Shown in pieces: positions 58,216-59,953 of a stretch of 64,000 nucleotides of DNA (positions within the stretch are counted from its first letter, which is position 1; every line of letters begins with the position of its first letter). The notes beneath the pieces were generated by a model that worked only from the letters and a program-made list of their open reading frames with translations, searched no databases and was not told the origin of the DNA. The stretch lies in assembly GCA_030428905.1 (NCBI GenBank), contig JAUIED010000001.1, forward strand, positions 124,001 through 188,000, given 5' to 3'. Both the position numbers and the translations under genes were made by a program. This stretch comes from Gammaproteobacteria bacterium. Lineage in GTDB: Bacteria; Pseudomonadota; Gammaproteobacteria; Pseudomonadales; Azotimanducaceae.

Positions 58216-58487
58216 AACTCGACCAACACCCAGGTGGGGAGCAGCATGTCGGCGCGTTCCAGATCGCCGAAGCCTCGGGTGCCGTCGCGGGGTGTGAGGT
58301 AGTACGGCTTGCCGACTTTCGGCACCACTTTCACCATGCGCAGCTGCCCGTTCTGCCAGTACTCGTACACCGTGCGCTGCTCGCCTGCGATGATGGTAAC
58401 GTCAGGTCCGTCGAGGCTGCGTTCGGCACTGATCGCCGATACGCAGCAGAACAACGTAGCCGCAGCGGTCAGCAGGCGCCGTTTCAC
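58212..58487 (-). CDS. DUF2782 periplasmic protein
   Basis: A 91-residue exported protein with a signal peptide (about 1-21) and a beta-rich domain: GEQRTVYEYWQNGQLRMVKVVP near 35-56 and GKPYYL. The family is conserved next to thrB and polA in Pseudomonas-like genomes. Function unknown. GTG start overlaps the SDR stop, and the stop overlaps thrB. Confidence 0.85.
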   Translation of the reverse strand: MKRRLLTAAATLFCCVSAISAERSLDGPDVTIIAGEQRTVYEYWQNGQLRMVKVVPKVGKPYYLTPRDGTRGFGDLERADMLLPTWVLVEF

Positions 58488-59368
58488 TGTGGCGCCTCTA
58501 GCAGGGCGGCCATGAACGCTTCCTGCGCTGCCAGGCGCTCCGGGTCCGGCTCTCCGAAGGCGCCCAACAGTGCCTCTAAGCGACCTGCGGCGGAGGCTTT
58601 GAGCTCAGGGTGCGGAAAAAGATACAACCGGTTTTCCTTGATGCCCTGCACCACGAGTTGGGCCACCTCATCCGCTTCGATGCCCGCGCCCATGGCCAGG
58701 TGCATGATCTCGCTGTGTGCTGTTGCGGCCTGTTCCGCCGCGGTATCGGTTGGATCGAACTGCGTTGGTCGTGTGCGCTCGCTTTCAAGGATGCGGGTAC
58801 GCACCATGCCGGGACACAGCACCGACACGCCAATGCCATGTGGCTCGAGGTCCATGCGCAACGCTTCGGATAGCCCGACCACCGCGAACTTGCTGGTGTT
58901 GTACACGCCCAGGCCAGCAGATGGAACGACGCCGGCCATGGACGCCGTATTGACGATGTGGCCGCCGCCCGCGGCTTTCATGCGCGGCAGCATGGTCTGG
59001 ATGCCATTCACCACACCGCCCACGTTCACGCCCATCACCCAGTCCCAGTCCGCATAGGTTACCGCGTCCAGCGTGCCGCCGCGGTACACCCCTGCGTTGT
59101 TGCACAGCACATGCACCGGGCCCAAAGCGTCAGCAACGGTGTCGGCAACCTCAGCGAACTGGCTGCGGTTGGTGACGTCGAGCTGAACTGCCATCACCTG
59201 GGCGTTACTGCCGCTTGCAAGTTCCGCCTGCGCGATGGCGAGCGCGTCAGCGTCGACGTCGGCGATGACCACATGCATGCCTTCGGCGAGTAGTGCGCGC
59301 GCCATGGCCAGGCCAATGCCGCTGGCGCCGCCGGTGATGAATGCGTTCTTACCGATCAGGTCCTGCAT
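58484..59368 (-). CDS. Short-chain dehydrogenase/reductase (SDR)
   Basis: A 294-residue classical SDR. The cofactor motif is TGGASGIG near 9-16, NNAG near 88-91, the catalytic Ser in NTASMAG, and YNTSK (YxxxK) near 157-161. Asp after the first beta strand (IADVDAD) suggests NAD. Substrate unknown. I place the start at ATG 59368 (MQDLIGKN), 7 bp after the selenoprotein stop. A frame to 59398 overlaps that gene. It is the first gene of the chain SDR-DUF2782-thrB, or follows the selenoprotein in one operon. Confidence 0.88.
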   Translation of the reverse strand: MQDLIGKNAFITGGASGIGLAMARALLAEGMHVVIADVDADALAIAQAELASGSNAQVMAVQLDVTNRSQFAEVADTVADALGPVHVLCNNAGVYRGGTLDAVTYADWDWVMGVNVGGVVNGIQTMLPRMKAAGGGHIVNTASMAGVVPSAGLGVYNTSKFAVVGLSEALRMDLEPHGIGVSVLCPGMVRTRILESERTRPTQFDPTDTAAEQAATAHSEIMHLAMGAGIEADEVAQLVVQGIKENRLYLFPHPELKASAAGRLEALLGAFGEPDPERLAAQEAFMAALLEAPQ

Positions 59369-59375
59369 GGGTGTC

Positions 59376-59723
59376 TCAGTTGCCGAAGATATCGGCATAC
59401 ACCGACTCGTTGAAGCCGACCAGCAGCGTGCTGCCCGTATCGATGGTGGGGGCGCGCAGGTTGCCGGTTGGTCCGAGCATCGCGTTGGCCGCTTCCTCGT
59501 TGCCGGAAGGCTTGTCGAATTCGCTGACTTTCTTGCCCTTCATGACGATCAGTTTGCCCGCGTTCTGCAGGAGCTCGGCTGCATCTTCCAACTGCAGCTT
59601 GCGGCTTGCCGGTACGGTTTCAACCACTTCTATATTGCTCGCTTCCAAAAACTTGGATGCCCGGGTGCAGCTGGTTCAGCCTTTGCGGTGGTAGTACCAC
59701 AGCGCCTTGGTTTTCTTGCCCAT
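59376..59723 (-). CDS. ArsC-family selenoprotein, Sec encoded by in-frame TGA (UTSC motif)
   Basis: Read through the TGA at 59676-59678 (codon 16), this is a 115-residue ArsC/Spx-like thioredoxin-fold protein. It starts MGKKTKALWYYHRKG, then U16-T-S-C19, then a helix (TRASKFLEASN). It ends with the ArsC-family strand region LGPTGNLRAPT near 83-93 and LLVGFNESVYADIF. A GAGGAG site lies 8 bases before ATG 59723. Without read-through, only a fragment from TTG 59648 can be called, lacking the redox site and having no ribosome site. UxxC in place of CxxC plus a downstream hairpin points to selenocysteine rather than a pseudogene. Substrate and redox partner are unknown. It is 7 bp before the SDR gene. 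Confidence 0.85.
59641..59660 (-). promoter_or_regulatory. Candidate bacterial SECIS hairpin
   Basis: Starting 16 nt after the TGA, the mRNA can pair GC, an A-A mismatch and then UCCAA with UUGGA, closing a four-base loop GUUU. Loop distance (24 nt) and the leading GU are as in known bacterial SECIS elements, such as fdhF (loop about 19 nt after UGA). Confidence 0.65.
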
Positions 59724-59953
59724 GATTGGTGCTCCTCAGTTCGCCGGCCATGGTTCCCGGATGCCGGGAGCCTGTCAACGGGTGGCGCGCGTTCCGGGGG
59801 TTGTGGATACTACGGACCAGGCTGCACACCCCAGCCTCCCCCCTCCGCTTCAGGGGCAGCATCTGCGTGCAGGGTGATTGGAATTCGACAACCACTGTCC
59901 GGGCCGGACGCACAAGGAGGGCTTGCGCCGATCGCCCGTGATAGGAGGTTTTC
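59724..59953. other. Divergent intergenic region selenoprotein / DnaB-like ATPase
   Basis: 230 bp, GC-rich. It contains a small perfect hairpin (TCCCGG-ATG-CCGGGA, 59755-59769) and an AGGAGG ribosome site for the rightward gene. No clear promoter hexamers. Confidence 0.4.

Follow-up and report, generated by a model that had tools for sequence, protein, structure and literature searches.

On the minus strand of the window, by which we mean the whole stretch of 64,000 nucleotides that was analysed, a gene for a small thioredoxin-fold protein extends from an ATG at 59723-59721 to a terminal TGA at 59378-59376. Its 115 codons include an in-frame TGA at codon 16, so counted because the frame is read through it, and the active-site motif of the read-through protein is U-T-S-C. 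The preliminary description had reported this frame, its GAGGAG ribosome-binding site and the sole in-frame TGA at codon 16, and our coordinates match it exactly. As it had also stated, ordinary ORF calling yields just a headless fragment, here of 90 codons with an internal TTG start (59376-59648). The features of the locus and the selenocysteine (Sec) genes found elsewhere in the same genome are collected in Table 1.

Table 1. Features of the selenoprotein locus in the window and Sec-related genes elsewhere in the host genome
Feature	Position	Strand	Remarks
Selenoprotein gene, 115-residue ArsC/Spx-like thioredoxin-fold protein	59376..59723	-	stop codon included; NF041106 113.1 bits, AlphaFold pLDDT 92.5, frame unbroken in relatives
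TGA codon 16, inferred Sec (U of U-T-S-C)	59676..59678	-	base-level comparison
TGC codon 19, resolving Cys	59667..59669	-	Cys at +3 in 43/43 gammaproteobacterial sequences
GAGGAG ribosome-binding site	59732..59737	-	8 nt upstream of ATG; also conserved in related locus L001
Predicted bacterial SECIS hairpin GC-A-UCCAA-GUUU-UUGGA-A-GC	59641..59660	-	pair counts and synonymous constraint; starts 16 nt after TGA
selA	contig C7 1976-3292		side by side with selB and tRNA-Sec
selB	contig C7 3289-5133		between selA and tRNA-Sec
tRNA-Sec (selC)	contig C7 5154-5246		tca anticodon
selD	G000:C7:26000-26884	-	L064; same contig as selA-selB-tRNA-Sec
UGSC-family TGA gene (NF041046)	G000:C16:37365-37796 (L105:1501-1932)		same genome
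Second UGSC-family TGA gene (NF041046)	G000:C315:7075-7503 (L106:1501-1929)		same genome; below curated cut-off

A short-chain dehydrogenase (SDR) gene at 58484-59368 on the same strand begins 7 nt past the selenoprotein stop codon, and the two genes are likely co-transcribed here. Because the gene neighbourhood is not conserved, with no widely shared neighbour when about 45 NF041106 loci were compared, the adjacent SDR gene says little about function. Neither an Rfam nor a tRNA search gave a match in the window.

The read-through protein matched the NCBIfam model NF041106, 'ArsC family (seleno)protein' (ArsC_rel_Se_1), with 113.1 bits against a cut-off of 85. Its in-frame TGA aligns with the Cys of homologues and forms a UxxC motif, and the gene is thus an additional member of an already known selenoprotein family; the preliminary description had called it hidden, which does not hold for a gene with a dedicated model. 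The related models did not reach their thresholds: Pfam ArsC (PF03960) scored 20.1 bits against a gathering score of 24 (E 0.00078), and the Spx/MgsR model TIGR01617 scored 26.2 bits against a cut-off of 75.05. The AlphaFold model of the read-through protein (pLDDT 92.5) had Spx and ArsC-related proteins as its best Foldseek matches, so that the predicted fold is Spx/ArsC/glutaredoxin-like.

The bare pattern of an in-frame TGA is not significant: in the window, 192 frames that run through exactly one TGA reach 100 codons or more, and in 15 of these a Cys stands three codons before or after the TGA (UxxC or CxxU). For the same reason, the earlier argument that random stops do not prefer such a position is no proof, and homology decides. 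This gene stands above chance because its frame and its TGA are conserved in relatives and the part upstream of the TGA is under purifying selection.

In public genomes we found 12 loci, with TGA in six and Cys in the other six, which are all from Planctomycetota; one of the TGA loci is 93% identical and five are Krumholzibacteriota-type. Within the taxonomic family of the host, the gene was found over the cut-off in 77 of 151 genomes, with exactly one TGA in 76 of them and Cys in one (G034), and none of 368 other genomes of the same class had a match over the cut-off. Relatives thus carry either TGA or Cys at codon 16, and the Cys of the Planctomycetota homologues and of G034 bears out the earlier view that the TGA stands in place of the first Cys of a CxxC motif. 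Compared base by base, 48 sequences carry this TGA without variation, 43 of 43 from gammaproteobacteria (Sec type) and the five Krumholzibacteriota-type ones. At the codon 19 position (+3), four of these five have Ser or Ala.

Decayed frames in close relatives had been named as an outcome that would speak against a selenoprotein; the frame is otherwise intact in all 43 gammaproteobacterial sequences. In the part that precedes the TGA, none of these sequences departs from W-7, Y-5 and R-3, and four codons are in use for the Arg. Because amino acids before the TGA are conserved while synonymous codons vary, the head of the protein is translated.

The single Cys form in the family of the host, G034 (L065, G034:C22), reads CPAC with TGT at the Sec site; its hairpin is gone, and selA is still present in the genome. 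In the tree, whose inner branches are partly unresolved, it is placed inside the Sec clade, and judged from these sequences it is a probable natural Sec-to-Cys switch. The version of the gene found in two relatives from the same genus as the host (L062 and L070, in G029 and G074) is deeply divergent, which points to replacement or to an old duplication.

The hairpin downstream of the TGA has the family-wide form GC-N-UCCAA-GUUU-UUGGA-N-GC at positions 19-38 (T of TGA = 1). Its codons are fixed or nearly so, with TCC for Ser+7 in 35/35, AAG for Lys+8 in 39/39 and TTG for Leu+10 in 37/41 sequences, whereas many codons are used for Ser, Lys and Leu at other sites of the gene. Because codons +7 and +8 lack synonymous variation and +10 nearly does, the region is under constraint at the RNA level. 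Standard pairs made up 85% of cells at the hairpin compared to 19-50% in slid controls. Compensatory changes were few (4 cells, 3 pairs) and covariation was modest; the fold of the single sequence was no more stable than that of shuffles. The RNAalifold consensus is also weak, so it is the synonymous constraint and the pair counts that carry the case for a SECIS element. Bacterial SECIS elements have been defined by a hairpin just after the UGA with a G in a small apical loop (PMC1088965), and here a GUUU loop is found together with conserved pairs and suppressed synonymous variation. The Planctomycetota homologues have not kept the hairpin; a related one, its loop beginning with GU, is present in the Krumholzibacteriota-type sequences.

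The host genome is a draft assembly of 5.23 Mb, 99.6% complete with a contamination estimate of 3.8%. A search of the genome for selA, selB, selC and selD, as had been proposed, found all four, on a different contig from the selenoprotein gene. The SelA and SelB proteins of relatives from the same genus are 54-63% identical to those of the host. The selD gene sits in an open frame of 726 codons and appears to be fused there to a preceding domain that resembles pyridine-nucleotide oxidoreductases; the active site of selD itself has Cys (CGGCGAK). Besides the two UGSC-family TGA genes, a partial third UGSC-family match lies on contig C350. Because 133 of the 151 genomes of the family match selA, its co-occurrence with the selenoprotein gene within the family is uninformative. 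Six genomes with the TGA form gave no selA match (G079, G088, G092, G105, G117 and G127, three of them from one genus, g23); these are possibly incomplete assemblies.

A broken frame in standard ORF finding and the abundance of random TGA-interrupted frames in the window are what one would expect if the gene were a pseudogene with a true nonsense mutation, or if the TGA were a miscalled TGC. This reading is refuted by the conservation of the same TGA in 76 separately assembled genomes of the family, and the protein-level selection on the head and the lack of frame decay in relatives leave it a practically negligible probability. It is also very improbable that a shorter protein is initiated inside the gene 3' of the TGA and that the head is not translated along with it. 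The 90-codon ORF with its TTG start would allow this, but the active site made up of U/Cys16 and Cys19 would be missing from such a protein, the ribosome-binding site stands before the upstream ATG, and the head is conserved while its synonymous codons vary. We conclude that the internal TGA is almost certainly decoded as selenocysteine instead of stop.

Two further readings keep the recoding and differ in chemistry. The protein could be a genuine arsenate reductase of the ArsC type that is coupled to glutaredoxin and depends on selenium, as the weak Pfam ArsC match and the ArsC/Spx fold would allow. The Pfam score is below the cut-off, however, and the sequences read have R-A-P or R-S-P aligned with the RP of relatives, that is, Ala or Ser before the conserved Pro where ArsC/Spx relatives have Arg; we used an Arg just before this Pro as the ArsC criterion, presuming the role of that residue. 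There is also no widely shared neighbour gene pointing to such a function, and we consider this reading unlikely. Of the ArsC label given earlier, the kinship of fold stands, and arsenate reduction by the NF041106 protein is not supported. A selenium-based redox switch resembling Spx, a sensor or regulator in which Sec would speed sensing, appears quite improbable as an alternative to a plain oxidoreductase.

From the sequence comparisons we hold with high confidence that the gene product is a free-standing NF041106 selenoprotein of thioredoxin fold, with SelB-dependent insertion of Sec at UGA codon 16 and redox chemistry at U-T-S-C; we infer both the insertion and the chemistry, the latter from motif and fold. 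SelB carrying Sec-tRNA(Sec) would bind the hairpin that starts 16 nt past the UGA, and selenocysteine would be placed at codon 16 to complete the U-T-S-C active site. The selenolate would most likely attack a disulfide or other oxidised thiol substrate, and Cys19 would then resolve the mixed selenenylsulfide, by analogy with other UxxC oxidoreductases.

A gene that ordinary ORF calling truncates is thereby given a corrected reading, and a predicted selenoprotein family gains good comparative evidence from the TGA/Cys site, the hairpin and the full Sec machinery. Among the genomes sampled, members of this selenoprotein family are frequent within one family of gammaproteobacteria (77/151). Within the collection of papers searched, none dealt with Woeseia selenoproteins or 'ArsC family' selenoproteins, and the cited survey and reviews of NF041106-type proteins offer prediction only and no experimental description.

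The earlier statement that ArsC-like selenoproteins had been predicted from marine metagenomes was right: in the Global Ocean Sampling data, Zhang and Gladyshev (2008) listed 'Arsenate reductase 2' (cd03032, UxxC) with 42 sequences (PMC2398784). Reviews list an 'Arsenate reductase-like protein' with UxxC (PMC9312934, PMC13188914), the 2026 review PMC13188914 under NF041106; the entry in PMC9312934 cites the Global Ocean Sampling study and is probably the same as its 'Arsenate reductase 2'. The window protein shows no essential difference from the NF041106 family, which it matches over the whole length, with Sec first in UxxC and Cys homologues elsewhere. The selenoprotein named 'Arsenate reductase' from the Sargasso Sea (PMC1088965), which is 'ArsC 1' in PMC2398784, shares the ArsC superfamily and an N-terminal active-site Sec with the window gene, but belongs to a separate model (TIGR00014 / pfam03960) and has UxxS in place of UxxC. 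With Spx (1z3e, 6gho) the window protein has the fold and the position of the CxxC motif in common, whereas its score lies far under the Spx/MgsR cut-off and binding to RNA polymerase is unsupported.
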